From assembly GCA_030535235.1 (NCBI GenBank), contig JAUNCL010000008.1, positions 23,701 through 87,700 of the forward strand: a DNA stretch of 64,000 bases, given 5' to 3'. Source of the stretch: Bacillota bacterium. Lineage in GTDB: Bacteria > Bacillota > Clostridia > Oscillospirales > Oscillospiraceae. Position 1 is the stretch's first letter, and each line of letters begins with the position of its first letter. This document shows, piece after piece, positions 5,361 to 28,590 of the stretch. The translations under genes were made by a program, and so were the position numbers. The notes under the pieces were generated by a model. The model saw only the letters and a program-made list of their open reading frames with translations, was not told the origin of the DNA and made no database searches.

Positions 5361-5370
5361 GAGAGAGAAT

Positions 5371-5517
5371 TGAACAGCGGGGAGCTTGTGTGACAGGCTG
5401 AGAGGAAGGTATCACCTTCGACCCTTGAACCTGATTTGGATAATACCAACGTAGGGAAGCCTGAGTTCGCTCATGTGTGGAGCGGGAAGCTGCCAAATCG
5501 GTGGCTTCCCGTTTTTT
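5371..5517 (+). ncRNA. TPP riboswitch with terminator expression platform
   Basis: The THI-box core is recognisable: CTGAGA (5398-5403), GACCCTTGAACCTGAT (5420-5435) and GGATAATACC (5438-5447), closing with GTAGGGAAGC. The aptamer spans about 5371-5469. Downstream, CGGGAAGC (5483-5490) pairs with GCTTCCCG (5504-5511) followed by six T (5512-5517), an intrinsic terminator. The aptamer's own 3' strand GGGAAGCC (5454-5461) is exactly complementary to GGCTTCCC (5503-5510), so an antiterminator can form when TPP is absent. Bound TPP should therefore switch the thi operon off by premature termination. Confidence 0.95.
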
Positions 5518-13932: not shown

Positions 13933-15369
13933 ATGGAACAGCAGCATTCTTCCCATTACATGCGGGGATTTATCCCCTACGGGGCGGCGGCCTTCCTGGT
14001 GGGCATTGTCGGCGGCTTCACCACCGTCCTGTCCCCGGCCTTCGTCCAGGATATCGGCATCGCGTACAACAACACCACCTGGACCGCCCTGGCCATGGCT
14101 ATCTCCACCGCCACCTTCGCCCCCATCCTGGGGAAGCTGGGGGACATGATCGGGCGGCGGGTCACCCTGCTCCTGGGCATCGCCGTCTTTACCCTGGGCA
14201 ATATCCTGACGGCGGTGGCCCAGAACCTCCCCTTCATGCTGGCGGCCCGCTTCGTGGTGGGCATCGGCGCCGCCGCCATCGCGCCGGTGATCATGGCCTA
14301 TATTGTCACCGCCTTTCCCCCCGACGCCATGGCAAAGGGCTTCTCCCTCTATATGCTCATCGCCAGCGGCGCGGTGATCTTCGGGCCCACACTGGGTGGC
14401 CTGATGCTCCAAGCCGCCGGCTGGCGGTCCATGATGTGGGTCTGTGTGGGTATCTCCGTTCTGATCTTCGTTCTCTGTCTGTTTACCTGCGACAAGACCC
14501 CCTTTGAACGCAAGTCTCTGGCGGGGTTCGACTCCCTGGGCTCGGTCTTTATCGTCCTCTTTTTCAGCTTTATCCTCTGCATCCCCTCCTTTGGGCAGAA
14601 CTTCGGCTGGGCTTCCCCGGCCTTCTGGACCGTGCTGGTGGCTGCCGCCCTGTCCCTCTGGCTCCTGGTGCTGGTGGAAAAGCGGGCGGAAAACCCCATT
14701 CTGCAGGGCAGCTTTCTGGCCCGCAAGGCCTTTGTCCTCCCCATCCTGGCCCTGTTCCTGACCCAGGGGCTGATGCAGGCCAACATGACCAACATCATCG
14801 TCTTCGTCAACTACACCCAGCCGGAAAACACCCTCATCTCCAGCTACGCCATCTCCATCATGTATCTGGGCATGTCTCTGGGTGCGGTCATTCTGGGGCC
14901 CCTGGCCGACCACCGGGAGCCCAAAGACATTCTGACCGGCTCCCTGATCCTGACCGGCATCGGCTGTGGGGCCATGCTCCTCTTCTCCGCCCATTCCTCT
15001 GCCGTTCTGCTGGCCGGCGCCCTGGGCGTCCTGGGCTTTGGTCTGGGGGGCAACGGGACCATCTTTATGAAGGTCGTCCTCTCCGGCCTGTCTCCCCAGG
15101 CGGCGGGGGCCGGGACGGGGACCTATGGGCTCTTCCGTGACCTCTCCGCTCCCTTCGGCGTGGCCGTCTTCGTCCCCATGTTTACCAACGGGATCACCGC
15201 TCGCATCGCCGCCGGCACCACGGCAGGACTCAGCGAGGTGGCCGCAGCGGCGTCCGCCGCCGTCCACTCCATCCGGGTCCTGGCCCTCACCGAGCTGGCC
15301 TGCGTGGCACTGGGCATCGTTGTGGTGCGTCTGATCCCCAGGATCCACCCCAGAGCAGCGGCAGAATAA
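13933..15369 (+). CDS. MFS transporter, DHA2-like (about 14 TM)
   Basis: 478 residues, hydrophobic throughout, with the MFS loop GKLGDMIGRR between helices 2 and 3 and the motif-C-like stretch LIASGAVIFGPTLGGLML in helix 5, typical of drug:H+ antiporters. The substrate is not predictable. GGAGGA lies seven bases before the ATG. It follows the thi operon terminator by 90 bases with no clear -35/-10, so its promoter is unassigned. A role in thiamin export is not supported. Confidence 0.85.
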   Translation: MEQQHSSHYMRGFIPYGAAAFLVGIVGGFTTVLSPAFVQDIGIAYNNTTWTALAMAISTATFAPILGKLGDMIGRRVTLLLGIAVFTLGNILTAVAQNLPFMLAARFVVGIGAAAIAPVIMAYIVTAFPPDAMAKGFSLYMLIASGAVIFGPTLGGLMLQAAGWRSMMWVCVGISVLIFVLCLFTCDKTPFERKSLAGFDSLGSVFIVLFFSFILCIPSFGQNFGWASPAFWTVLVAAALSLWLLVLVEKRAENPILQGSFLARKAFVLPILALFLTQGLMQANMTNIIVFVNYTQPENTLISSYAISIMYLGMSLGAVILGPLADHREPKDILTGSLILTGIGCGAMLLFSAHSSAVLLAGALGVLGFGLGGNGTIFMKVVLSGLSPQAAGAGTGTYGLFRDLSAPFGVAVFVPMFTNGITARIAAGTTAGLSEVAAAASAAVHSIRVLALTELACVALGIVVVRLIPRIHPRAAAE

Positions 15370-15467: not shown

Positions 15468-15496
15468 TTGACTCCCTGCGTTTTTGGGTGTATAGT
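15468..15496 (+). promoter_or_regulatory. glnN promoter
   Basis: TTGACT (15468-15473), 17-bp spacer, TATAGT (15491-15496), giving a start near 15503, about five bases before the leader hairpin. Confidence 0.8.
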
Positions 15497-15507
15497 ATGC
15501 CGTATTA

Positions 15508-15556
15508 AGAGACACTGTCGTCTCAGAGGGATTCCTCTGCGCCAGTGTCTCTTTTT
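15508..15556 (+). promoter_or_regulatory. glnN leader: hexaloop hairpin overlapping a terminator
   Basis: GAGAC (15509-15513) and GTCTC (15520-15524) enclose the hexaloop ACTGTC, with A at position 1 and G at position 4, the bases ANTAR proteins are known to read. The same 5' strand, AGAGACACTG (15508-15517), alternatively pairs with CAGTGTCTCT (15543-15552), which is followed by TTTTT. A second hairpin, CAGAGG-GATT-CCTCTG (15524-15539), lies between. The two folds exclude each other, as expected for antitermination. The second hairpin lacks the A1/G4 loop, so this is not a textbook dual-hexaloop element. Confidence 0.7.
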
Positions 15557-15594: not shown

Positions 15595-17691
15595 ATGTTG
15601 ACCATACCGGAATATTTTGGGAGCCTGGTGTTTGACGACCGCATCATGAAGGCCCGGCTCTCCAGTCAGGTATACCGTTCTCTAAAGCAGACCATGGAAC
15701 GGGGGACCAAGTTGGACCTGTCCGTGGCTGACGCCGTGGCCGCCGCCATGCGGGACTGGGCTGTCGAGAACGGAGCCACCCATTTCACCCACTGGTTCCA
15801 GCCCCTCACCGGTATCACCGCGGAGAAGCACGACAGCTTCATCTCTCCCGCCCCCGACGGCCGGGTCATTCTGGAGTTCTCCGGCAAGGAGCTCATCAAG
15901 GGAGAGCCCGACGCCTCCTCCTTCCCCTCCGGCGGCCTGCGGGCCACCTTCGAGGCCAGAGGCTACACCGCCTGGGACCCCACCAGCTACGCCTTTATCA
16001 AGGGCAAGACCCTCTGCATCCCCACGGCTTTCTGCGCCTACGGCGGGGAGGCCCTGGACAAAAAGACCCCTCTGCTCCGCTCCATGGAGGCCCTGAACAA
16101 GCAGGCTCTGCGAATCCTGCGGCTCTTCGGCAGCACCGAGGTGAAGCGGGTCACCTCCATGGTGGGACCCGAGCAGGAATACTTCCTGGTGGATCAGGCC
16201 ATGTACAACGCCAGAAAGGACCTGGTCTACACCGGCCGGACCCTCTTCGGCGCCAAACCTCCCAAGGGTCAGGAGCTGGACGACCACTACTTCGGCTCCA
16301 TCAAGCCCCGGGTGGCCGCCTACATGGAGGATCTGAACGACGAGCTGTGGAAGCTGGGTATCCTGGCCAAGACCGAGCACAACGAGGTGGCCCCCGCCCA
16401 GCACGAGCTGGCCCCCATCTACACCACCGCCAACATCGCCGCTGACCACGACCAGCTGACCATGGAGATCATGCAGAAGGTAGCCGCCAGACACGGCCTG
16501 GTCTGTCTGCTCCACGAAAAGCCCTTCGCCGGCGTCAATGGCTCCGGCAAGCACAACAACTGGTCCATCGCCACCGACACCGGCATGAACCTCCTCTCCC
16601 CCGGTGAGACTCCCTATGAGAACGCCCAGTTCCTCCTCTTCCTGGTGGCCGTCATCAAGGCGGTGGACGAGTATCAGGGCCTCCTCCGCATGGCCGTGGC
16701 CACCGCCGGCAACGACCACCGTCTGGGGGCCAACGAGGCCCCGCCCGCTGTGATCTCCATCTTCCTGGGGGACGAGCTCACCGCCGTGCTGGAGGCCATT
16801 GAGAACGATGCCCCCTACGCCGGCATGGAGAAGAAGAAGATGCGGCTGGGGGTCAACGCCCTGCCCCGCTTCATCCGGGACACCACCGACCGGAACCGGA
16901 CCTCCCCCTTTGCCTTCACCGGCAACAAGTTTGAGTTCCGTATGCTGGGCTCCAGCAACTCCATCGCCTGCGCCAACATGATGCTCAACACCGCCGTGGC
17001 AGAGGTCCTCCGCCAGTTCGCCGATGCCCTGGAGGCCTCCACGAACTTCGATGACACCCTCCACGAGCTTCTCAAGAGCACCGTCATCGCCCACAAGCGC
17101 ATCATCTTCAACGGCAACGGCTACGACGACACCTGGATCAGGGAGGCCGTGGAGGAGCGGGGTCTTCTGAACCGGCCCACCACCCCCGACGCCATGGGGG
17201 CCGTGCTGGAGAAGAAGAACCAGGATATGCTCATCGCCCACCAGGTCTTCTCCAAGGCCGAGCTACTCTCCCGCTATGAGATCCAGATGGAGAACTACTG
17301 CAAGACCGTCCGCATCGAGGGTCTGACCATGGTGGACATGGTCAGAAAGGAGATCTTGCCCGCCGTAGAGGCCTATCTGGCCGACATCGGCTCCGCCGCC
17401 GCCGCCAAGCAGGCAGTGAGCCCCGAGCTTCCCTGTACTTACGAAAAGAAGCTGCTCAAGAAACTGGACCTGCTGGTCAACCTGATGGATGAGAGAACGG
17501 AAGCCCTGGAGCAGGCCATGGTGAACCTGGAGACCCTGGGGGACATCACCCAGGAGGCCTACGCCATCCGGGATGTGGTCCTGCCCAGGATGCGGGAGCT
17601 GCGGGCCGCCGCCGACGAGGCCGAGACCTGCACCGCCAGAAAATACTGGCCCTTCCCCACCTATGGCGACCTGCTCTTTGGGGTGAGATAA
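15595..17691 (+). CDS. glnN: Glutamine synthetase type III
   Basis: 698 residues, the length of GSIII (about 700) and far longer than GSI. It makes glutamine from glutamate, ammonia and ATP. Diagnostic stretches: [47 protein letters not shown] and [19 protein letters not shown]. The ATG at 15595 follows AAAGGGTG. It lies behind a promoter and an antiterminator-like leader, and an asparagine synthetase gene follows 45 bases later without an intervening terminator, so the pair is likely one nitrogen operon. Confidence 0.97.
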
Positions 17692-17736: not shown

Positions 17737-19317
17737 ATGTGTTCTATTATGGGATATTGCTCTGACAGCGTGGAACCGGAGCGGTTCCAGGAGGGCTTTG
17801 CCCGCACCAAATCCAGAGGGCCGGATGACAGCCGGGTCCTCTCTACAGGAAAGGGACTGCTGGGCTTCCACCGCCTGTCCATCATGGGCCTGCACCCCGA
17901 GGGGATGCAGCCCTTCACCCTGGACGGCAGTTATCTGGTCTGCAACGGGGAGATCTATGGATTTCAGCCCATCAAGCAGGAGCTTCAGGAAAAGGGCTAC
18001 GTCTTCCAGAGTGACTCGGACTGCGAGGTCCTCCTCCCCCTCTATCGGGAATACGGGGTGGACATGTTCGCCATGCTGGACGCGGAGTTCGCCTGCATCC
18101 TCTATGACGGGGAGCAGGAGACCTTTGTAGCCGCCCGGGACCCCATCGGGATCCGCCCCCTGTACTACGGCTACGACGAGAACTGCTCCATCGTCTTTGC
18201 CAGCGAGGCCAAAAACCTGGTGGGGTTGGTGGAGCACATCATGCCCTTCCCCCCGGGGCACTACTACAAAAACGGTCGGTTCATCTGTTACCATGACATC
18301 ACCGCCGTGAAGCAGGTGTCCCGGGATGACCTGGAGACCGCCTGCACCAAGATCCGGGAAAAGCTCACCGCCGGCATCCGGAAGCGCCTGGTGGCCGACG
18401 CCAAGGTGGGCTTCCTCCTCAGCGGCGGTCTGGACTCCTCCCTGGTCTGCTCTGTGGCCCAGCGGTACTCCGACGCCCCTATCCGTACCTTTGCCATTGG
18501 CATGAGCGAGGATGCCATCGACCTGAAGTACGCCAAGGAGGTGGCCGAGTACATCGGCAGCGACCACACCGAGGTCATCATCTCCAAGGAGGACGTCCTG
18601 GACGCCCTGGACACCGTGGTCCATCTGCTGGGGACCTTCGACATCACCACCATCCGTGCCAGCATCGGTATGTATCTGGTCTGCAAGGCTATCCATCAGA
18701 ACACCGACATCCGGGTCCTGCTCACCGGCGAGATTTCCGATGAGCTCTTCGGCTACAAATATACCGACTTTGCCCCCTCGGCAGAGGAATTCCAAAAGGA
18801 GGCCGTTAAGCGCTTGCGGGAGCTCCACATATACGACGTCCTCCGGGCAGACCGCTGCATCTCCGTCAACTCCCTGGAGGCCAGAGTGCCCTTTGGGGAC
18901 CTGGATTTCGTGGAGTACGTCATGTCCATCGACCCCGAGCTGAAAATGAACAAATACAACAAGGGCAAGTACCTCCTCCGCCACGCCTTCGAGGGGGACT
19001 ACCTGCCGGAGCGCATCCTGTACCGGGAAAAGGCCGCCTTCTCTGACGCGGTGGGCCACTCCATGGTGGACTACCTGAAGGAGTACGCCGAGAGCCGCTA
19101 CACCGACGAGGAGTTCCAGCAGAACCGGCTGGCCTACACCCACGCCCAGCCCTTCACCAAGGAGTCCCTTCTCTACCGGGAGATCTTTGAGCAGTATTAT
19201 CCCGGTCAGGGGGAGATGATCGTGGATTTCTGGATGCCCAACAAAGCCTGGGAAGGCTGCAATGTAGACGACCCCAGCGCCCGCGTTCTCTCCAACTACG
19301 GCCAGAGCGGCCTTTAA
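17737..19317 (+). CDS. asnB: Asparagine synthase (glutamine-hydrolysing)
   Basis: 526 residues. N-terminal Ntn glutaminase with catalytic Cys2 (MCSIMGY), GFHRLSIMG and CNGEIYGF; C-terminal synthetase with the ATP PP-loop SGGLDSS (229-235) and the EARVPFGD substrate stretch. It converts aspartate, glutamine and ATP to asparagine and glutamate. GGAGGGG precedes the ATG. Its place after glnN means the glutamine made upstream is a direct substrate. It ends at a strong terminator. Confidence 0.95.
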   Translation: MCSIMGYCSDSVEPERFQEGFARTKSRGPDDSRVLSTGKGLLGFHRLSIMGLHPEGMQPFTLDGSYLVCNGEIYGFQPIKQELQEKGYVFQSDSDCEVLLPLYREYGVDMFAMLDAEFACILYDGEQETFVAARDPIGIRPLYYGYDENCSIVFASEAKNLVGLVEHIMPFPPGHYYKNGRFICYHDITAVKQVSRDDLETACTKIREKLTAGIRKRLVADAKVGFLLSGGLDSSLVCSVAQRYSDAPIRTFAIGMSEDAIDLKYAKEVAEYIGSDHTEVIISKEDVLDALDTVVHLLGTFDITTIRASIGMYLVCKAIHQNTDIRVLLTGEISDELFGYKYTDFAPSAEEFQKEAVKRLRELHIYDVLRADRCISVNSLEARVPFGDLDFVEYVMSIDPELKMNKYNKGKYLLRHAFEGDYLPERILYREKAAFSDAVGHSMVDYLKEYAESRYTDEEFQQNRLAYTHAQPFTKESLLYREIFEQYYPGQGEMIVDFWMPNKAWEGCNVDDPSARVLSNYGQSGL

Positions 19318-19385: not shown

Positions 19386-19421
19386 AAAACCGCCGTATCC
19401 ATTGAGATACGGCGGTTTTTT
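19386..19421 (+). terminator. Terminator after asnB
   Basis: AAAACCGCCGTATC (19386-19399) pairs with GATACGGCGGTTTT (19406-19419) over a six-base loop, followed by T. Confidence 0.9.
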
Positions 19422-19432
19422 CCTTTTTATAG

Positions 19433-19461
19433 TTGACATCTCTCCCATTCCGCCGTATAGT
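19433..19461 (+). promoter_or_regulatory. Promoter of the HD/nucleotidyltransferase operon
   Basis: Perfect TTGACA (19433-19438), 17-bp spacer, TATAGT (19456-19461). The -10 is identical to that of glnN. Confidence 0.85.
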
Positions 19462-19472
19462 AAATATTGTAT

Positions 19473-19525
19473 TGAGACAAAGATGTCCCGGAAACTGTTT
19501 CTGCGGCGTCCTTGTCTCAGTTTTT
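19473..19525 (+). promoter_or_regulatory. Leader: hexaloop hairpin overlapping a terminator
   Basis: GAC (19476-19478) and GTC (19485-19487) close the hexaloop AAAGAT, again A1 and G4; the stem extends weakly outward with one mismatch. TGAGACAA (19473-19480) can instead pair with TTGTCTCA (19512-19519), followed by G and five T. Between them CGGAAA-CTG-TTTCTG forms a second small hairpin. Layout and distance from the promoter match the glnN leader, though the stem is weaker. Confidence 0.6.
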
Positions 19526-19563
19526 ATTTTCATTAGAATTTATTTCTCCGGAGGTGGCAACCC

Positions 19564-22500
19564 ATGACAGATCCCATGGCAGCAAAGGACGCATTCAACC
19601 AGGCCCTGCTCCAGCTCTCCCAGGCTGCCCCGGCCGTCGGCGGCCTGCTCATCCAGGAGGCAGAGGCCCTGATGGCCCTATCCGCCCACGACAGCCGGGT
19701 TTGCCGACAGACCCTGGCCCTCTGCCAGCCAGCCATGGCGGCCCTGGGGGCCCAGGTGGACGACCGGTGGCTGGCGGCCCTGTATGACCAACTCACAGCC
19801 AACCTCTTCCCCGATGAGACCACCGGCCATGTGCGGCGCCCCCTGGACCCCGCCGAGACTCTGTATCTGGCCGTTCTGGAGCTGGTCCTCTCCCAGCCCG
19901 TTTCGGTCTCTGACTCTCTGCTGGACCTGCTTCCCCTCCCCGAGGATTCCATTCCCGGCAGCCGTGTGGAGCTCCAGTACCGGCGTTTCCGAAAACTGTT
20001 TGGAGAAAACCATGTGGTGACCCTCATGCGGCTGGGCCGGGAGATCATGCCCTTCGATCCGGCCTCCCACACCATCGGCGTCCACAACGTGGCCCTCCAC
20101 ACCGCCAAGATGGCCAAACTGGCGGGTATTCCCGTGGACCTGCCCCTGGTGAGCGCCGCCGCCCTGGGCCATGACGTGGGAAAATTCGGCTGCCGGGGGG
20201 AGGACGCCCAGCGGATCCCCTACCTCCACTACTACTACACCTGGCAGTGGTTCAGCGAGCACGACATGGAGGACATCGGCTACATCTCCGCCAACCACTC
20301 CACCTGGGACCTGGAATTTGAGAACCTGCCCATGGAATCCCTCCTTCTCATCTATGCGGACTTCCGGGTTCGGGGATCCAGGGAGAACGGAAAGGAGACC
20401 ATGGCCATCTACAGCCTGGCCGAGGCCTATGACATGATCTTCTCCAAGCTCTATAACATGACCGAAGAAAAGCAGCTCCGGTACCGGACGGTCTACGCCA
20501 AGCTGCGGGATTTCGAGACCTATCTGACCTCCCACGGGGTCCCGGTGGACCTGGATCGGGAACAACTGGAGGAGGTGCAGTCCACCGACCCCGCCCTCCT
20601 CTCTCCCGACCAGGCCCTCCAGGGTCTGCGGAACATGACCCTGGAAAACTCCATCCGGCTCATGAACATGGTCAGCACCGATGAGTCCTTTGAACAGCTT
20701 CTGGAACAGGCCAAGGGAGAAAAGAACCTCCAGCGCATCCGCACCTACCTTCACCTTCTGGAGGAGTACAGCACCTACATGACCAAGGCCAACAAGCAGA
20801 AGGCCCTGACCCTCCTCTACGAACTGCTCATGCACCCCGACGGGGACGTCCGCCGGAAGGCAGGCAGCCTCATGGGGCAGATCCTGGCCAACAGCGGCCC
20901 CAAGTATCGGAAGGAGCGGCCAGGAGGTGCCCGGAAGGAGGCCATCACCCCCACCATGATGGCCCTGTTGGACGAGTCCGTGAGCCTGTGGGAAAAATAC
21001 ATCCACCTGTGCCTCCGGCCCCAGCAGAGAGTCTCCCCCAGCCATGCCCTTCGAATTTCAAACTCCCTGAAAACCATCTGTCACAGTCTTTTCGCCCATT
21101 GTGACGGAAAGGAGGCCCAACCCCTGCTGGAGCCCCTTCTCCACCTGATCTGGGAGACCGATGACCCCCGGGAGCAGTTCATCCTGATCGACGCCCTGGG
21201 CAAGATCCCCTGGGCCTGTCTCCCCAAAGACGCCGAGGCCCCCACCATCCAGGCCCTGGGACGGATGCTCCACAGCCAGGAGGTGAGGCTCCAGATCGCC
21301 GCGCTGCTCCGCCTGGAGGAGCTCTGCCGTCAGCGGCCTGGGCTGATCCCCCAGATCCGCCCCCAGGCAGAGAGTTTTGTACCCTGGGATGGAGAGCACC
21401 GGTTGGTGCTGACCACCCTGCGCTGCCGGGTTCTGGGGCTGCCCGCACCCTCCCTCAGCTCAGAGGAGGCCTCTGAGATCTACCTGAGCAACCTGAAGGC
21501 TGCCGTCCACTGGATGGTGAAGCTGGTCCAGATCGACCTGCTCTGCGCCCGGGTGGATACCTGTCCCGACAGCATCTTTCACACCGCCATGCACCTGTCC
21601 AACCTTCTCTCGGTCAGCGAACACCTGCCCGTCCGGGAGTACGCCGGTCAGTGCCTGATCCGTCTGGCTCCCCGGCTGGCGGCGGAGCAGATCAACGAGA
21701 TCGCCATCGACCTGCTTCGGGAACTGGAGAGCGGGCAGGAGCAGATCTCCCAGTTCATCCCCCCCTACGCCGGCCCCATTCTCTGCCTGCTGCCGGAAAA
21801 GGAGCTGCGGGAGGCCATCGTGATCCTGGAAAATCTCGTGCGGCGCGCTTCCGGCCGGGCGGCCCGGGCAGCCCTGTATACCCTGGGAGAGATACTAAAT
21901 GTATGGACCGGAGACGAAGATATGGTCCACCGGGTCCTGGGGATCCTCATGTCGGGGGTCAGCCACTATGAGGAGGACATTCACCAGACCGCTCTGGCCG
22001 TCCTCTGCCGGGAGGTCTTCGGCAGCCGCCGCCTCTCCCCGGAACGGAAGAATCGCTGCTTCACCTTCCTGCATAAAAAGCTGCTGACCATCCTGTCGGA
22101 GCCCCGGGAGGGCCGGCTGACCTTCTTCAACCGGGCCGCCATGCTCAACCACCTCTACCGGTTCCTGGTCCAGTATGAGGTCACCCGGGGGCCCTTCGTC
22201 TTCCCAGCCAGAAAGCCCGCCGCCTTTTTCCCCGGCACCTTCGACCCCTTCTCCGTGGGCCACAAGCGCATCGTGGAGGAGATTCGGTCCCTGGGATACG
22301 AGGTCTACTTGGCGGTGGACGAGTTCTCCTGGAGCAAGCAGACCCTGGCCAAGCTCCTGCGGCGGCAGATCGTCAGCATGTCCGTGGCCGACCAATGGGA
22401 CACCTATCTCTTCCCCGACGATATCCCCATCAATATCGCCATGCCCCGGGATCTGGCCCGCCTGCGGTCCTTCTTTCCGGACCAGGACCTCTGTCTGGTG

Positions 22501-24264
22501 GCGGGCAGCGATGTGATCCGCCACGCCTCGGCCTACCGCAGCACCCTTCCCTGCTCCGCTCCCGACTTCGACCACATCATCTTCTGCCGGGACCGGGAGG
22601 AGGGTCCCCCCATGGAGGAGATCATCCGGGGCAAGGTCCGGCTGATCTCCCTGCCCGCCTTCTTTGACACGGTGAGCTCCACCCGGATCCGGGAGTATGT
22701 GGACCAGAACCTGGACATCTCCATGCTGGTAGACCCTGCCGTCCAGTCACTGATCTACCAGTACAGCCTGTACCTCCGCTCCCCGGAGCGAAAGGACATC
22801 CTCCGGCGGCAGGACCTCTTCTTCCGCACGTACCGAAGCCGGACGGGAGAACTCCCGGAAACCATGAACCGTCTGCTGACCCGGGGACGGGATGCTCTGG
22901 GGTCCGCCCTCTTCCTGCGGCCCTCCACCCTGTGGGGATGGACCGTGGGGCACACCCTCCACTCCGCCGACCTCTACGAGGTCATCGGCACCCTGGAGGG
23001 GGCCAGCTTCGTCCGGCAGAACACCTCCGGCCGCATCCTCTTTGTGGACCAGGTCTGCCTGGAGTGCCCCAAGGACCAGGAGCCAGCCGCCTGCCGGATG
23101 CTCCTGAACGAGCTGCTGGCCCGCAGTCTGGAGCGGGACCACACCTACGCCCTCTGCCGGTGCCAGGAGACCGAAGGCCCTCTGGCCTACGCCTTGGAGC
23201 AGCTGGGCTTTCTTCCCATTCCGGGGCAGGAGGATATCTTCTGCGTGGATATGCGCTCCCCCATGATGCTCCTCCAGGACGGCTTTCTCCACATCAAAAA
23301 GCCCTACCGGGACAGCGACCGGGTGAAGGCCGTCGTGGCCCGGATCCGCCCCCGCCTCCGCTCCACCCTGGCGGGCATGTTCCCCGGCAAGCTGGTGCTG
23401 TGCTTCGACTCCGAGATGCTCAACCAGGCCCTGATGGAGCGGGTAGAAACCCTCAACGGCGTCAAGGACGTTCCCCCCGGCCAGCGCCGGCTGGGGCCCT
23501 GCATGTGCGTCCCCTACGGCAAGATTCTGGCCGACGAGATCGTTCCCAACACTGTCACCAAGACCCTCCATGTAGAGAAGAGCTTTGACCCGGACATCCA
23601 CAGCTTCCAGGTCACTGAGTACCCCGGCTACTCCCCCCTGAAGAACCAGGTCCGCACACTCCTCTCCTTCCAGCGGCCGGTGATCCTGGTAGATGACCTG
23701 CTCCACAAGGGCCACCGCATGGAGAAGCTGGACCGCATCCTGAAGGAGGAGGGACTGGACATCCAAAAAATCATCGTGGCGGTCATGTCCGGCTACGGAC
23801 GGGATCTGATGCGCCTTCAGGGGCGGCAGGTGGACTGCGAGTATTTCATTCCCAACCTCCACTACTGGATGACCGAGAGCCTGCTCTACCCCTTTTTAGG
23901 GGGCGACAGCGTGGCCGGACGGCGGGTCACCGAGGGAATGCTCCCCTCCATCAACCTCATTCTTCCCTACATCTATCCCAACTTCCTGGCGGACGCCTCC
24001 GACGGCGCCATCCGCCAGCTCTCCCAGGTGGCCCTGGAAAACGCCTGCGCCCTGATGAAGGCCCTGGAGCAGGAGCACCAGCAGATCTGCAGCACCGCCT
24101 TATCCCTGCGGCGGCTGGGGGAGGTCCTCCAGCGGCCCCGTCTCCCTGACCGTGGAGGCTGCCTGGGCTATGACGTTTCCCTGCCCCCGTCGGCCTGCCT
24201 GGAGGATGATCTCATCCAGCTCCGGCGGCTCCATCGAAAGGAGGGTCACTATTATGAAGTATAG
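19564..24264 (+). CDS. 1566-residue HD / HEAT-like / nucleotidyltransferase / PRTase-like multidomain protein
   Basis: The function of the whole is unknown to me. Visible parts: (1) an HD-type phosphohydrolase domain, about 150-290, with H174/H179, H203-D204 in LGHDVGK, H245 and D266; (2) a long helical, HEAT-like region, about 330-870; (3) a cytidylyltransferase/NadD-CoaD-like domain, about 885-1060, with GTFDPFSVGH (891-900) and SSTRIRE (1038-1044); (4) a possible GNAT-like segment, about 1100-1230, ending EQLGFLPIPG; (5) a PRTase-like segment with VILVDDLLHKGHR (1373-1385), near the PRPP-binding VDD-TG motif; (6) a helical C terminus. It has no signal or membrane segment. The start follows GGAGGTGG. 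It is the first gene of a three-gene operon and overlaps the next by 11 bases. Confidence 0.85.
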   Translation: MTDPMAAKDAFNQALLQLSQAAPAVGGLLIQEAEALMALSAHDSRVCRQTLALCQPAMAALGAQVDDRWLAALYDQLTANLFPDETTGHVRRPLDPAETLYLAVLELVLSQPVSVSDSLLDLLPLPEDSIPGSRVELQYRRFRKLFGENHVVTLMRLGREIMPFDPASHTIGVHNVALHTAKMAKLAGIPVDLPLVSAAALGHDVGKFGCRGEDAQRIPYLHYYYTWQWFSEHDMEDIGYISANHSTWDLEFENLPMESLLLIYADFRVRGSRENGKETMAIYSLAEAYDMIFSKLYNMTEEKQLRYRTVYAKLRDFETYLTSHGVPVDLDREQLEEVQSTDPALLSPDQALQGLRNMTLENSIRLMNMVSTDESFEQLLEQAKGEKNLQRIRTYLHLLEEYSTYMTKANKQKALTLLYELLMHPDGDVRRKAGSLMGQILANSGPKYRKERPGGARKEAITPTMMALLDESVSLWEKYIHLCLRPQQRVSPSHALRISNSLKTICHSLFAHCDGKEAQPLLEPLLHLIWETDDPREQFILIDALGKIPWACLPKDAEAPTIQALGRMLHSQEVRLQIAALLRLEELCRQRPGLIPQIRPQAESFVPWDGEHRLVLTTLRCRVLGLPAPSLSSEEASEIYLSNLKAAVHWMVKLVQIDLLCARVDTCPDSIFHTAMHLSNLLSVSEHLPVREYAGQCLIRLAPRLAAEQINEIAIDLLRELESGQEQISQFIPPYAGPILCLLPEKELREAIVILENLVRRASGRAARAALYTLGEILNVWTGDEDMVHRVLGILMSGVSHYEEDIHQTALAVLCREVFGSRRLSPERKNRCFTFLHKKLLTILSEPREGRLTFFNRAAMLNHLYRFLVQYEVTRGPFVFPARKPAAFFPGTFDPFSVGHKRIVEEIRSLGYEVYLAVDEFSWSKQTLAKLLRRQIVSMSVADQWDTYLFPDDIPINIAMPRDLARLRSFFPDQDLCLVAGSDVIRHASAYRSTLPCSAPDFDHIIFCRDREEGPPMEEIIRGKVRLISLPAFFDTVSSTRIREYVDQNLDISMLVDPAVQSLIYQYSLYLRSPERKDILRRQDLFFRTYRSRTGELPETMNRLLTRGRDALGSALFLRPSTLWGWTVGHTLHSADLYEVIGTLEGASFVRQNTSGRILFVDQVCLECPKDQEPAACRMLLNELLARSLERDHTYALCRCQETEGPLAYALEQLGFLPIPGQEDIFCVDMRSPMMLLQDGFLHIKKPYRDSDRVKAVVARIRPRLRSTLAGMFPGKLVLCFDSEMLNQALMERVETLNGVKDVPPGQRRLGPCMCVPYGKILADEIVPNTVTKTLHVEKSFDPDIHSFQVTEYPGYSPLKNQVRTLLSFQRPVILVDDLLHKGHRMEKLDRILKEEGLDIQKIIVAVMSGYGRDLMRLQGRQVDCEYFIPNLHYWMTESLLYPFLGGDSVAGRRVTEGMLPSINLILPYIYPNFLADASDGAIRQLSQVALENACALMKALEQEHQQICSTALSLRRLGEVLQRPRLPDRGGCLGYDVSLPPSACLEDDLIQLRRLHRKEGHYYEV

Positions 24265-25495
24265 CGCCTGGCACGGCTTCTGCCTCTGCGGACAGGAGAG
24301 GCAATTCCCCCCGGAGGCCCGGCCGGTGGATGTCCCCTTCTCCCCTCTGGTCTTTCTGGTCACCCGGGACCCCAGAACCGCCCGGGGCTGGTTCACCATC
24401 TCCCACCCGGCGGAACTCTACGAGCCCGAAGGGCTGGCCGCTCTGACCCCCTGCGATGGTGAAATCCCCCGGGACTTCCCCCGGGAGCTGGTGGGTCTGG
24501 TGGAGGCCCACGGCGCATGCGTGCTGAACACCGCCTTCGCCCGGGCCTTCCCCTGGCTCCTCCACCAGAAAACAGTCCGCCGGGAGGGCTTCAAGATCAC
24601 CCTGGTGGGCCTGGGGGATGTGGGCGGCACCGTCCTCACCGGATTAAAGCTTCTGGGCCGGGAGTTGAGGGAGATCGCCATCTTCGATCCCAACGCCGCC
24701 CTGTGTGCCCGGTATGAGATGGAGCTGAACCAGATCCTCCCGGAGACCGCCGGCGGCACAACGCCCCGGGTCACCATCTGTCCGGAAGCCGACCTCTTTC
24801 ACTGCGACCTGCTGGCCTTCACCGCCTCCCGGGGCGTGCCCGGTCTGGACAGCGGCGTGCAGGATGTCCGCATGGCCCAATTTGAGGCCAACCGAGCCAT
24901 GATCGCCCCCTACGCCCGTCGGGCCAGGGAGGAGGGGTTCCTGGGCGTCTTTTGTCAGATCTCCGACCCGGTGGACAACCTGGCCCGGGAGGTCTTTCTC
25001 CAGAGCAACCAGACACAAACCGGCGACTATGACTTCGCTGGCCTGCTCCCCGAGCAGGTCCAGGGCTTCGGCCTGGGGGTCATGGCAGCCCGGGCGGCCT
25101 ATTATGCGGAAAAGGAAGGGGTGGACTTTTCCCAGGGCGGAGCCTACGGCCCCCACGGCCAGGGACTGGTCATCGCCAACCACAAGGGGAACGGGTACGA
25201 CGAGGCCCTCTCCCAGCGGCTCACCCGCCTGACCCGGGAGGCCAACCTCCGGGTCAGGGACCTGGGCTTCAAGCCCTATATCGCCCCGGGGCTCTCCTCC
25301 GCGGCCGTCTCCCTCCTCCAGCTCCTCCGGGGAGAGGAACACTACGGCGCCGTCCCCCTGGGGGGCGTCTACTTCGGCTGCCGCAGCCGGTATACCCCCC
25401 AGGGCCTCGCCATCCAACGGGAACCCATCAACCAGGGTCTCATGGCCCGTTTGGCCCAGACCCACCGCGCATTGTGGGAGTTTGATACACCATGA
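24254..25495 (+). CDS. LDH/MDH-superfamily Rossmann protein with N-terminal extension
   Basis: 413 residues. Start at the ATG at 24254 after AAAGGAGGG; it overlaps the upstream gene by 11 bases. The first ~110 residues match nothing I recognise. Then the dinucleotide motif VGLGDVGG, an Asp at the end of strand 2 (IFDPN, favouring NAD), and an ISDPVDNLA stretch like the NPVD of lactate/malate dehydrogenases. It is longer than a normal LDH (about 315), and the LDH active-site His region is not obvious (GPHGQG may correspond). So it may be a dehydrogenase of an unusual substrate or a binding protein. Its stop overlaps the next start (ATGA). Confidence 0.75.
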   Translation: MKYSAWHGFCLCGQERQFPPEARPVDVPFSPLVFLVTRDPRTARGWFTISHPAELYEPEGLAALTPCDGEIPRDFPRELVGLVEAHGACVLNTAFARAFPWLLHQKTVRREGFKITLVGLGDVGGTVLTGLKLLGRELREIAIFDPNAALCARYEMELNQILPETAGGTTPRVTICPEADLFHCDLLAFTASRGVPGLDSGVQDVRMAQFEANRAMIAPYARRAREEGFLGVFCQISDPVDNLAREVFLQSNQTQTGDYDFAGLLPEQVQGFGLGVMAARAAYYAEKEGVDFSQGGAYGPHGQGLVIANHKGNGYDEALSQRLTRLTREANLRVRDLGFKPYIAPGLSSAAVSLLQLLRGEEHYGAVPLGGVYFGCRSRYTPQGLAIQREPINQGLMARLAQTHRALWEFDTP

Positions 25496-26559
25496 AACAA
25501 CCGACTATTACCCTGGTGCAGGTGGGCAACACCCACCGGCTGGAACAGATTTTGCCCAAAGCCTTAAAGGGGGTCTCCGTCCAGTGGATCCCTCCTCAGC
25601 TCATCGGCGTGGAGGACCTGCGAAACCGTCGGCTCCTCTTTGCCGTGGGCATGGACGCCTTCGGGCCGGACCCCTCCTTCTATCTGCTGGTCCGCCGCCT
25701 GCGCCAGCACCCCAACTGTCTGGCCGGCTGCGCCGCCGGGCTGGTGGTGGACGGCTGCGGAGAGCTCTACACCAAGCAGGCCGCCCAGACCCTGGTCATG
25801 GCCGCCAATCTGGCCGGCTGCGCCTTCCCCGGTAAGCCCCTGGTGGAGGGGACCGGCTCCCTGTACAACCAGCACATCCTGGCCAATCAGCTGGGGATCA
25901 CCTGGGAGGAGACCTATTTCCTCCGGGTCCGGGAGCTGGCCCAGCGGGTGGCTGCCTTCACCCCGCCCCGCTTCGACCACCCCAGGCTCCTGATGATCCA
26001 CGCCTCGGACAACGCCCGGTCCAACACGGTCTGGCTGGGACGGCAGGTTCTGCAGCATCTGCCAAAGCGGTTCTCCTTCCAGGAGGTCTCCCTCCAGAAC
26101 GGGACCATCCAGGACTGCCGGGGCTGCTCCTACAGGGCCTGCCGCCACATGGCCCGGCAGAACACCTGCTTCTACAGCGGACCCCTGTCCCAGGAGATCA
26201 TCCCCGCCATCAACGCCTGCGACGTCATGCTCTTCCTCTGCCCCAACTACAACGACGCCGTCAGCGCCAACATCATGGCTCTGTTCAACCGACTGACCAA
26301 CCTGCTCCACCAGCACGAGCTGTATGAGAAATACCTCTTCGGCATCGTGGTCTCGGGCTACTCCGGCAGCGACCTGGTGGCCCAGCAGCTTCTGGGAGCC
26401 ATGTGCTTTAACAAAACCGCCCAGCTTCCCCCGCAGTTCTGCCTGATGGAGACTGCCCACGAGTCCGGCTCCGCCCAGAAAAAGGCAGGCATCCAGGAGG
26501 ATATCCTCCGGTTCGCCTCCCACATCGAGTCCGCCGTTCTTCGGCGGACCTCCGCGTGA
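25492..26559 (+). CDS. Flavodoxin-fold NAD(P)H:FMN reductase-like protein with Cys cluster
   Basis: 355 residues. The C-terminal ~190 residues look like an NADPH-dependent FMN reductase or iron-sulfur flavoprotein: LLMIHASDNARSNT as the phosphate loop, then DCRGCSYRACRHMARQNTC, which holds four cysteines, and FLCPNYNDAVSANI as the flavin-contact region. The N-terminal ~160 residues contain a second Rossmann-like part (FAVGMDAFGPD, LAGCAAGLVVDGCGELYTK) without a family I can name. Third gene of the operon, coupled by ATGA. Likely an electron-transfer partner of the preceding dehydrogenase-like protein; this is inference. Confidence 0.72.
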   Translation: MKQPTITLVQVGNTHRLEQILPKALKGVSVQWIPPQLIGVEDLRNRRLLFAVGMDAFGPDPSFYLLVRRLRQHPNCLAGCAAGLVVDGCGELYTKQAAQTLVMAANLAGCAFPGKPLVEGTGSLYNQHILANQLGITWEETYFLRVRELAQRVAAFTPPRFDHPRLLMIHASDNARSNTVWLGRQVLQHLPKRFSFQEVSLQNGTIQDCRGCSYRACRHMARQNTCFYSGPLSQEIIPAINACDVMLFLCPNYNDAVSANIMALFNRLTNLLHQHELYEKYLFGIVVSGYSGSDLVAQQLLGAMCFNKTAQLPPQFCLMETAHESGSAQKKAGIQEDILRFASHIESAVLRRTSA

Positions 26560-26629: not shown

Positions 26630-26658
26630 TTGACAAAATCCCCCACCGGGAGTAAAAT
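26630..26658 (+). promoter_or_regulatory. glnA promoter
   Basis: Perfect TTGACA (26630-26635), 17-bp spacer, TAAAAT (26653-26658). Confidence 0.85.
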
Positions 26659-26666
26659 CTGCCTGT

Positions 26667-26731
26667 GAACGAGGATGTTCGGAGAGGGAAGCTGTGCGCT
26701 TTTTTACGGAACCATCCTCGTTATTCTTTTT
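26667..26731 (+). promoter_or_regulatory. glnA leader: hexaloop hairpin overlapping a terminator
   Basis: GAAC (26667-26670) and GTTC (26677-26680) enclose the hexaloop GAGGAT; G is kept at position 4 but position 1 is G rather than A. AACGAGGATG (26668-26677) can instead pair with CATCCTCGTT (26713-26722), followed by a T-rich tract to 26731. The hairpin begins within a few bases of the predicted transcript start, as in the glnN and 19.5-kb leaders. The ANTAR gene that could act on it is the next gene after glnA. Confidence 0.65.
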
Positions 26732-26761: not shown

Positions 26762-27976
26762 ATGAAGTTCACCCCAGAGGAAGTCATACAGTATGTGGAG
26801 GAGGACGACATCAAGTTCATCCGCCTGGCCTTCTGCGATATTTACGGCCAGCAAAAGAACGTCGCCATTATGCCCACCGAGCTCAGGCGGGCCTTCCGGA
26901 GCGGCATTGCCATCGACGCCTCGGCCATTGCCGGGTTTGGCGGCGAGGTCCGGTCCGACCTGTTCCTGCGCCCGGACCCCTCCACCCTGGTCCAACTCCC
27001 CTGGCGGCCGGAGAGCGGGAAGGTGGTCCGCATGTTCTGCGACATCACCCATCCCGATGGGACCCCACTGGCGTCCGATCCCCGGGGGATTCTGAAGAAC
27101 GCCATCCACGCCGCCGCTGCGGAGGGGATCACCTTTGACTTCGGCGCGGAGATGGAGTTCTATCTGTTCAAGACCGATGAAAACGGCGAACCCACCCAGC
27201 AGCCCTACGACAAGGCCGGCTACATGGACATCGCCCCCGACGACAAGGGGGAAAATGTGCGCCGGGAGATCTGCCTGACCCTGGAGGCCCTGGGCATCCA
27301 GCCGGAGAGCTCCCACCACGAGGAGGGCCCCGGCCAGAATGAGATCGACTTTCGCTATTCCGACGCCCTCTCCTCCGCCGACAACGCCATCACCTTCCGC
27401 TCGGTGGTCAAGACCGTGGCCCTTCGGAACGGCCTGGCAGCGGACTTCTCCCCCAAACCCCTCCGGGACCAGGCTGGCAGCGGACTGCACATCAACATCT
27501 CGGTGAACGACGCCGACGGGCGGGATCTCCTGCCCCACGTTATCGCCGGCATGATGGCCCATATCCACGACATGACGCTCTTTCTGAACCCCTGTGAGAA
27601 CTCCTACGAGCGTCTGGGCCGGAACAAAGCCCCCGGCTACATCACCTGGTCCAGAGAGAACCGCTCTCAGCTCATCCGCATCCCGGCGGCGGACAAGGAC
27701 CATCCCCGGGCGGAGCTGCGCTCGGCCGACCCCTCCGCCAACCCCTATCTGGCCTTCGCCCTGCTCATCCACGCCGCTCTGGACGGCATCAAGCAAGAGC
27801 TGACGCCGCCCCCCAGCACCGACGTCAACCTCTACGCAACCCCTGCCCACAAGCTGGCCACCTACCAGAAGCTTCCCTCCTCCCTGCAGGAGGCCAGATT
27901 CCTCGCCAAAGAGAGTTCCTTCCTTCGCGCCCATCTGCCGAACCCTGTGATCTCTGCCTATTGTGACCAGCCCTGA
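26762..27976 (+). CDS. glnA: Glutamine synthetase type I (short form)
   Basis: 404 residues from the ATG at 26762, preceded by GGACGGTGGG; a TTG two codons upstream is also possible. Motifs: GAEMEFYLF, HHEEGPGQNEIDF (ammonia/glutamate site), GSGLHINIS (ATP), NSYERLGRNKAPGYITWSRENRS and RAELRSADPSANPYL. It is shorter than typical GSI (about 440-470) and lacks the adenylylation segment. Second glutamine synthetase in the window, 9 kb from glnN. The ANTAR regulator follows 17 bases later, an order known for clostridial glnA-nitR. Confidence 0.93.
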   Translation: MKFTPEEVIQYVEEDDIKFIRLAFCDIYGQQKNVAIMPTELRRAFRSGIAIDASAIAGFGGEVRSDLFLRPDPSTLVQLPWRPESGKVVRMFCDITHPDGTPLASDPRGILKNAIHAAAAEGITFDFGAEMEFYLFKTDENGEPTQQPYDKAGYMDIAPDDKGENVRREICLTLEALGIQPESSHHEEGPGQNEIDFRYSDALSSADNAITFRSVVKTVALRNGLAADFSPKPLRDQAGSGLHINISVNDADGRDLLPHVIAGMMAHIHDMTLFLNPCENSYERLGRNKAPGYITWSRENRSQLIRIPAADKDHPRAELRSADPSANPYLAFALLIHAALDGIKQELTPPPSTDVNLYATPAHKLATYQKLPSSLQEARFLAKESSFLRAHLPNPVISAYCDQP

Positions 27977-27993: not shown

Positions 27994-28590
27994 ATGGTTT
28001 TTCAGGAGCGAACCTATCGTGTCCTCATCGTCTCTTCCTCAGAAAAATTCAATACCTCCGTCCGTCAGCTCCTCCCCACGGCGGAATACTGGCCCATCAC
28101 CACCGCACGAAGCGTCGCTGAGGCCAAGCGCTGCCTGCTGGAACAGCCCTGCGACATCATCCTCATCAACGCCCCCCTGCCCGATGACTTCGGCATGCGT
28201 CTGGCCATCGACATCTGCAACAGCAGCAACGCCGGCGTGCTTCTGCTGGTCAAAAGCGAGGTGTACAGCGGGATCTATGCCAAGGTCGTGGGCTACGGCG
28301 TCATGACCCTCTCCAAGCCCACCTCGGTGCAGATGATCGCCCAGTCCCTGCGGGTCCTCTGCGCCACCCGGGAACGGCTGCGGAAGGTGGAGGAGCGGCA
28401 GGCCTCTCTGGAGGAGCGCATGGAAGAGATCCGCCTGGTGAACCGGGCAAAGTGGATGCTCATCCAGTGCCTGGGCATGACCGAGGCCGAGGCCCACCGA
28501 TACATCGAAAAACAGGCCATGGACCGTCGTATTTCCAAACGAAAGGTCGCGGAAAGCGTGCTGGAAACCTACCAGTCCCAGACCCCGTGA
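27994..28590 (+). CDS. nitR: ANTAR-domain RNA-binding antiterminator, NitR-like
   Basis: 198 residues. The N-terminal half (1-120) has a response-regulator fold, but the acidic pair is replaced (VSSSEK, residues 13-18) and the phospho-acceptor Asp is Asn59 ([11 protein letters not shown]). It is thus a pseudo-receiver unlikely to be phosphorylated; the SKP lysine is kept. A coiled-coil linker (about 120-135, [17 protein letters not shown]) leads to the ANTAR domain (about 136-190: [43 protein letters not shown]). ANTAR domains bind hexaloop hairpins in nascent RNA and prevent termination. GGAGGGAT precedes the ATG. Downstream of glnA and upstream of pyrG. Confidence 0.9.

Follow-up and report, generated by a model that had tools for sequence, protein, structure and literature searches.

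A three-gene unit of a multidomain HD and NadD-like protein, an LDH-like protein and a flavoprotein conserved in Clostridia

A maker and an editor of nucleotide cofactors can share one polypeptide chain, as in the NadD-YqeK fusions, which join a NadD-type adenylyltransferase to an HD diphosphatase-type domain and which, according to PMC9426524, are found in most mycoplasmas and exemplified by JCVI-Syn3A. Here we analyse a 64,000-nucleotide stretch (the window; positions 23,701 to 87,700 of contig JAUNCL010000008.1) from the genome of a Bacillota bacterium of the Oscillospiraceae (GCA_030535235.1; 2.25 Mb in 51 contigs, 97.7% complete), in which an operon of three genes encodes a large protein with HD, HEAT-like, NadD-like, GNAT-like and phosphoribosyltransferase (PRTase)-like parts (the big protein), a lactate dehydrogenase (LDH)-like protein and a flavodoxin-fold protein. 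The genome also carries an ordinary NadD-YqeK fusion (locus L103, 835-2040 on the minus strand; 402 residues, the YqeK part read from the sequence). Compared with such fusions, the big protein has the two domains in reversed order and some 600 residues apart, with the HEAT-like region in the intervening stretch; it also carries GNAT-like and PRTase-like domains, is encoded next to two redox partner genes, and scores far under the NadD cut-off.

The other parts also belong to known superfamilies. The second-best solved-structure match of the NadD-like domain (E 6e-8) is the PRK08887/VPA0413-type nicotinate/nicotinamide nucleotide adenylyltransferase (3h05), whose alignment has in common with it a W-x-K stretch and an aromatic residue opposite Tyr991, although that protein is small (177 residues) and the NCBIfam PRK08887 score is 24.5 against a cut-off of 164. 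From L-lactate and malate dehydrogenases (MDHs), the LDH-like protein differs by Met in place of D168, Asp in place of N140, an Asp in the glycine-rich loop and some 107 extra N-terminal residues, while the PRTase-like domain has the fold and acidic DD pair of type I PRTases (uracil, xanthine) but H-x-G-x-R where these have TGGT. The flavoprotein matches PF03358 in common with NADPH-dependent FMN reductases and iron-sulphur flavoproteins, from which it is set apart by its C-x2-C-x4-C-x8-C spacing and about 160 extra N-terminal residues. Iron-sulphur flavoproteins have four cysteines, and four are likewise invariant in the operon flavoprotein. Finally, the locus resembles the ANTAR regulons (EutV, NasR, AmiR), as PMC3369931 presents them, in having a hexaloop hairpin before a terminator, the A1 and G4 loop bases (in the glnN and operon leaders) and nitrogen genes; here the 5' arm of the first hairpin (P1) joins the terminator, whereas that source's scheme has the second hairpin overlapping it.

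We found no described system with this domain chain or this three-gene unit, in line with what the initial annotation had stated: neither the open-access literature (a search whose coverage leaves out most subscription journals and bioRxiv preprints, so that a description may exist) nor PADLOC or PHROGs yielded one. The unit passes superfamily tests (PF01467, PF03358, LDH fold) and fails those tests, at equivalog or motif level, by which a function could be named.

A gene unit kept in order and strand

The open reading frames (ORFs) confirm both the translational coupling of the three genes and their placement between asnB and glnA (Table 1). A scan of 84,980 species genomes for the LDH-like protein recovered 331 relatives; because two peptide patterns served as its starting point, this number is a lower bound. 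The best 80 of these 331 were kept (37-70% identity) and, with two more loci, make up the 82 loci examined. Carriers include Anaerotignum neopropionicum DSM-3847, Oscillibacter sp. PC13 and Pseudoflavonifractor capillosus An827. All three genes are present in 73 of the 82 loci, with order and strand identical in every one of the 73, a conservation that exceeds chance and contradicts the counter-case named in the initial annotation, that the three genes would rarely occur together.

One of the 73 loci (L054, 5116-9960) has the big frame split into three open stretches, and five of the other nine run into a contig edge (L018, L020, L021, L038, L060). At L020 a helicase gene separates the big gene from the LDH-like gene, and intergenic gaps reach about 1.2 kb in some other loci. 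An extra small ORF (cluster c106) stands between the LDH-like and flavoprotein genes of L073 and L085, and the L085 copy matches nothing in Pfam at E <= 0.001. A supposed fourth conserved gene (cluster 3), first read as methionine gamma-lyase, proved to be an opposite-strand shadow of the LDH-like and flavoprotein genes and was rejected.

In a sample of 398 genomes of the phylum, covering two of the families, the LDH-like family proper (E < 1e-100) and the C-terminus of the big protein co-occur in the same eight genomes, and the two genes adjoin in seven of them. Six more matches to the LDH profile (E 2.5e-6 to 1.5e-7) resemble ordinary LDHs. Occurrence is patchy, with carriers making up 3 of 197 genomes of the order and 3 of 16 of the genus (own genome included in both).

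Folds and motifs of the three proteins

The assignments made in the initial annotation (HD, nucleotidyltransferase, PRTase-like, LDH-like, flavodoxin) were all recovered as folds or motifs; the HEAT-like region, the GNAT-like fold and the ANTAR gene after glnA are additions to it. The HD domain carries the H..HD..H..H..D motif of YqeK-type two-metal HD proteins (PMC8177086), all six residues of which are kept in 71 of 71 aligned rows. It remains under the PF01966 gathering cut-off of 22 bits (16.7 bits for the window's domain, 13.5 for the whole protein), and PF01966 matches at E <= 0.1 in 25 of 30 HD-domain rows. The NadD-like domain passes PF01467, the cytidylyltransferase-like superfamily (24.7 bits against a gathering cut-off of 21), and the tested residues of its core motifs GxFDPxxxxH and SSTxIR are likewise present in 71 of 71 rows. 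Further downstream, residues 1083-1233 pass the GNAT acetyltransferase fold test, and the PRTase fold was found by Foldseek (E 2.8e-5, prob 1.00), with a target-normalised template-modelling score of 0.43 and a root-mean-square deviation of 9.2 on the multi-domain model. By sequence, the latter domain misses the gathering cut-off of the type I PRTase family PF00156 (17.7 against 26.3 bits), which matches at E <= 0.1 in 9 of 56 rows, and a PDB profile search with the C-terminus returned one match only, at E 2. Most PRTase-like rows have H-x-G-x-R in place of the TGGT phosphate loop. Where the initial annotation had proposed binding of a compound like phosphoribosyl pyrophosphate (PRPP), the fold and the DD pair are retained and the PRPP loop is altered.

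The LDH-like protein has no Pfam match and passes the fold and NAD-binding Asp tests of the LDH/MDH superfamily (NAD, nicotinamide adenine dinucleotide). Its LDH fold starts around residue 108; residues 1-107 gave no match in the model search, a result that does not by itself establish a new fold. Residues were mapped on an alignment that included the ordinary LDHs of L123 and L124 and one unrelated L124 ORF, with the LDH genes of L125 and L126 left out; LDH H195 corresponds to H301, invariant in 58 rows. That the gene is a duplicate of a local LDH was set aside, as PF00056 has no match in this genome (it matches 13 of 14 control genomes). The flavoprotein passes FMN_red (PF03358; 54.8 bits against a gathering cut-off of 24), and its four invariant cysteines could, judging from their sequence pattern, hold a cluster. 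A PDB profile search found no solved relative of this protein, and an NCBIfam search gave nothing informative.

Leaders and neighbouring genes

The operon is preceded by a promoter-like site and an attenuator leader which, as annotated initially, resembles those of both glutamine synthetase genes. As read, the glnN, operon and glnA leaders share one layout: the first of two hairpins has a six-base loop, and a strand downstream of both forms the terminator by pairing with the first one's 5' arm. Between positions 15300 and 28700 there are five promoter-like sites against 2.2 (standard deviation 1.4) in shuffles; three of the five precede glnN, the operon and glnA (10 or 11 of 12 matches), and right after each of these three comes a hairpin with a U-tract (z -6.1 for glnN, -6.5 for the operon, with a minimum free energy of -25.5, and -4.3 for glnA, where 1 of 200 shuffles folds equally well). 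The automatic terminator scan missed all three attenuators and gave 4 terminator-like sites against 9.0 in shuffles. Translation of glnA probably starts from the ATG at 26762, since the longest ORF would begin at 26675, within the leader.

According to PMC3369931, ANTAR proteins bind hexaloop hairpins with A1 and G4, and their predicted target RNAs lie mostly upstream of nitrogen genes. The P1 loops read ACTGTC (glnN), AAAGAT (operon) and GAGGAT (glnA), so that the A1/G4 pattern fits the first two and not the third (G at loop position 1), and a second A1/G4 loop was not recognised. In other Clostridia, loops of the same kind, AAAGGC or AAAGGT, occur in the glnN leaders of L117, L118 and L056 and in the asnB leader of L031. 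By itself the loop motif is weak evidence: base shuffles give it a probability of 0.12 for glnN, glnA has none, and the operon value of 0.015 (shuffle mean 0.18) counts two hairpins, only one of which is P1 as read. The ANTAR gene downstream of glnA is the only one found in this genome.

Elsewhere, asnB and/or glnN occur in the fetched flanks of 13 of 80 loci (L014, L026, L027, L031, L035-L037, L039, L046-L048, L055, L056), which by reading represent about six distinct arrangements. A Poisson estimate places 13 loci far above chance (P <= 1.1e-8) and six arrangements above it as well (P 4.5e-5 to 0.005); gene numbers and genome sizes were assumed for it, shared ancestry was left uncorrected, and the independence that it presupposes does not hold. 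At L056 an ANTAR gene, glnN and asnB adjoin the operon, followed by clusters read as purC and purA, and in L014 (90-12336; same genus) glnN, a purF-like gene and an apparent pyrG end directly precede the big gene on one strand; glutamate dehydrogenase lies near the operon in L005, L006 and L024. Asparagine synthase is the most recurrent neighbour, and the remaining listed ones are diverse, often housekeeping genes. The operon leader was recognised in this species only, in a non-exhaustive comparison (a crude hairpin and T-run scan, and a hairpin scan of 13 other loci): the crude scan 5' of the big gene in other loci found varied hairpins and no common leader, and none of this kind precedes the operon in L007 and L014, both of the same genus. 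The proposed tie to nitrogen control is upheld in this genome, by the leaders and the single ANTAR gene, and as a neighbourhood it recurs in other genomes.

Table 1 Features of the operon and its surroundings (window positions)
Feature	Position	Strand	Details
glnN promoter-like site and attenuator leader	15468..15556	+	
glnN, glutamine synthetase type III	15595..17691	+	
asnB, asparagine synthase (glutamine-hydrolysing)	17737..19317	+	5' flank of operon
Terminator-like site 3' of asnB	19386..19419	+	
Operon promoter-like site, sigma-70 type	19433..19461	+	TTGACA-17-TATAGT; 11/12 matches
Operon attenuator leader	19470..19527	+	P1 hairpin GAC[AAAGAT]GTC, second hairpin, terminator strand complementary to P1 5' arm, U-tract
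Big gene	19564..24264	+	1566 aa; HD, HEAT-like, NadD-like, GNAT-like, PRTase-like
HD domain	19978..20367	+	H169, H203-D204, H222, H245, D266
Middle HEAT-like region	20701..22203	+	borders approximate; Pfam below cut-off, only at residues 408-442
NadD-like adenylyltransferase domain	22219..22779	+	residues 886-1072
GNAT-like fold	22810..23262	+	residues 1083-1233; usual acetyl-CoA loop absent
PRTase-like domain	23383..23910	+	about residues 1274-1449; D1377-D1378 retained; TGGT loop replaced by H-x-G-x-R
LDH-like NAD(H)-type gene	24254..25495	+	413 aa; ATG at 24254; 11-base overlap with big gene
Flavodoxin-fold (FMN_red) gene	25492..26559	+	355 aa; ATGA overlap with LDH-like gene; PF03358, E 1e-14
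Four-cysteine cluster of flavoprotein	26116..26169	+	C209-x2-C212-x4-C217-x8-C226; 78/78 rows
glnA promoter-like site and attenuator leader	26630..26730	+	
glnA	26762..27976	+	downstream flank of operon
ANTAR response regulator gene	27994..28590	+	directly 3' of glnA

Possible functions of the unit

The reading that we favour, tentatively and without regarding it as established, is that the operon is one functional unit in which the big protein makes and/or edits an NAD-type dinucleotide, the LDH-like and flavin partners use it, and ANTAR-dependent induction accompanies that of glutamine synthetase. The NadD-like domain would transfer adenosine monophosphate from adenosine triphosphate to a mononucleotide, the YqeK-like HD domain would cleave dinucleotides that are wrong or in surplus, and a (phospho)ribosylated base may be supplied or bound by the PRTase-like domain, with the GNAT-like and HEAT-like parts as a putative scaffold. 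The LDH-like protein might then bind the NAD(H)-type dinucleotide and act on a 2-oxo or 2-hydroxy acid, with the flavoprotein as its presumed electron-transfer partner; in this genome, antitermination by the ANTAR protein would switch on the operon together with glutamine synthetase. What the analysis shows is the unit itself, its domains and motifs and the common design of the leaders, whereas each reaction, the substrate, the direction of flow and the ANTAR dependence are inferred; the precedent for a maker and an editor joined in one chain is NadD-YqeK (PMC9426524). The making, repair or salvage of a nucleotide cofactor suggested by the initial annotation may apply, with the invariant residues of the NadD-like and HD motifs speaking for it and the altered PRPP and GNAT loops against it. 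A unit kept in order across many Clostridia for which no name or pathway was found represents a missing piece of nitrogen and cofactor metabolism in anaerobes. It also lends itself to direct testing, the possible outcomes being a previously undescribed nucleotide cofactor, nucleotide signal for nitrogen state or system of cofactor repair.

Several observations weigh against the favoured reading. The NadD equivalog TIGR00482 is missed by far (29.6 bits against 112.45), and the Arg that HD phosphohydrolases carry about three residues ahead of the first His (PMC8177086) is absent, position 166 being T in 34, P in 22, L in 5 and S in 4 of 71 rows. Aligned with hhalign to this genome's YqeK, the HD profile reaches a probability of 2.7 and E 0.017 over just 40 columns. 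The acetyl-CoA loop [RQ]xxGx[GA] occurs in just 1 of 56 rows, and the PRPP loop [DE][DE]xxxTG in 4 of 56, the window protein not among them. In the LDH-like protein the catalytic dyad D168-H195 of L-LDHs and MDHs is not kept, as only H195 is retained; D168 is Met277 and N140 is Asp238 in 58 of 58 rows, which makes ordinary LDH chemistry doubtful. NAD itself does not need the operon, given the ordinary NadD-YqeK fusion in the genome. As to the unit, the flavoprotein gene is not nearby in L024 and L070, nor the big gene in L072 and L079, and in genome G519 the two tested families lie on separate contigs, so that adjacency is not demonstrated there. L024, L070, L072 and L079 could tell which gene pair suffices.

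The explanation rated next, because two domains no longer have the loops expected of ordinary enzymes, is a sensor or signalling complex for nitrogen or nucleotides, in which the NadD-like and HD domains would make and destroy a nucleotide signal, the PRTase-, GNAT- and HEAT-like parts would serve as sensors or scaffold, and redox state or a 2-oxo acid would be reported by the LDH-like and flavin proteins. It is a possible but rather doubtful account: maker and breaker domains do share a single chain, the PRPP and acetyl-CoA loops are altered beside otherwise invariant residues, and the site lies among glnN, asnB, glnA and the ANTAR gene and, in the same-genus genome, after the purF-like and pyrG-like genes, but the Pfam scan recognised no receptor or output domain, and two redox enzyme folds fit poorly in a pure signalling device.

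Quality control, with the HD, NadD-like, LDH-like and flavin proteins removing or repairing damaged or mis-made NAD-type dinucleotides much as YqeK does beside NadD, is unlikely. The invariant six-residue HD motif and YqeK-NadD proofreading (PMC9426524) are consistent with it, yet the genome already carries the fusion, and patchiness within the genus would be odd for housekeeping repair. Distinctly unlikely is that the operon makes and uses a non-NAD dinucleotide redox cofactor under nitrogen control in gut Clostridia, the PRTase-like domain joining a base to ribose phosphate, the NadD-like domain adenylylating the product, the HD domain policing it, and a dedicated LDH-fold dehydrogenase and the flavoprotein using it; the changes of D168 to Met and N140 to Asp would then fit a different nicotinamide-like ring.

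Patchy distribution and several nucleotide-handling domains in one chain are also what the biosynthesis of a nucleotide-like secondary metabolite or antimetabolite might show, and transporters occur nearby: among the neighbours scanned, 2 of 82 and 2 of 91 have ABC transporter domains, and four loci have a cluster read as MATE-type transporters (c15). Of 103 and 104 neighbour families, however, the 25 commonest include no transporter or tailoring family with strong recurrence, and with asparagine synthase leading the neighbours we consider this very unlikely. An anti-phage defence system or mobile island, which the patchiness and a large multi-domain HD/HEAT-like protein might recall, is highly improbable and was set aside, given that none of the three proteins matched an entry of PADLOC or PHROGs at E <= 0.01, that gene order is stable across distant loci, that the neighbours are nitrogen and nucleotide genes, and that the GC content of the operon genes (0.64-0.67) is near that of the neighbours (0.60-0.64).

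GlnD and GlnE have a different nucleotidyltransferase fold, and protein adenylylation of their kind was set aside for that reason. Apart from the operon, the window contains a thiamine pyrophosphate riboswitch at 5369-5476 (64.3 bits), its sole Rfam match at gathering level.

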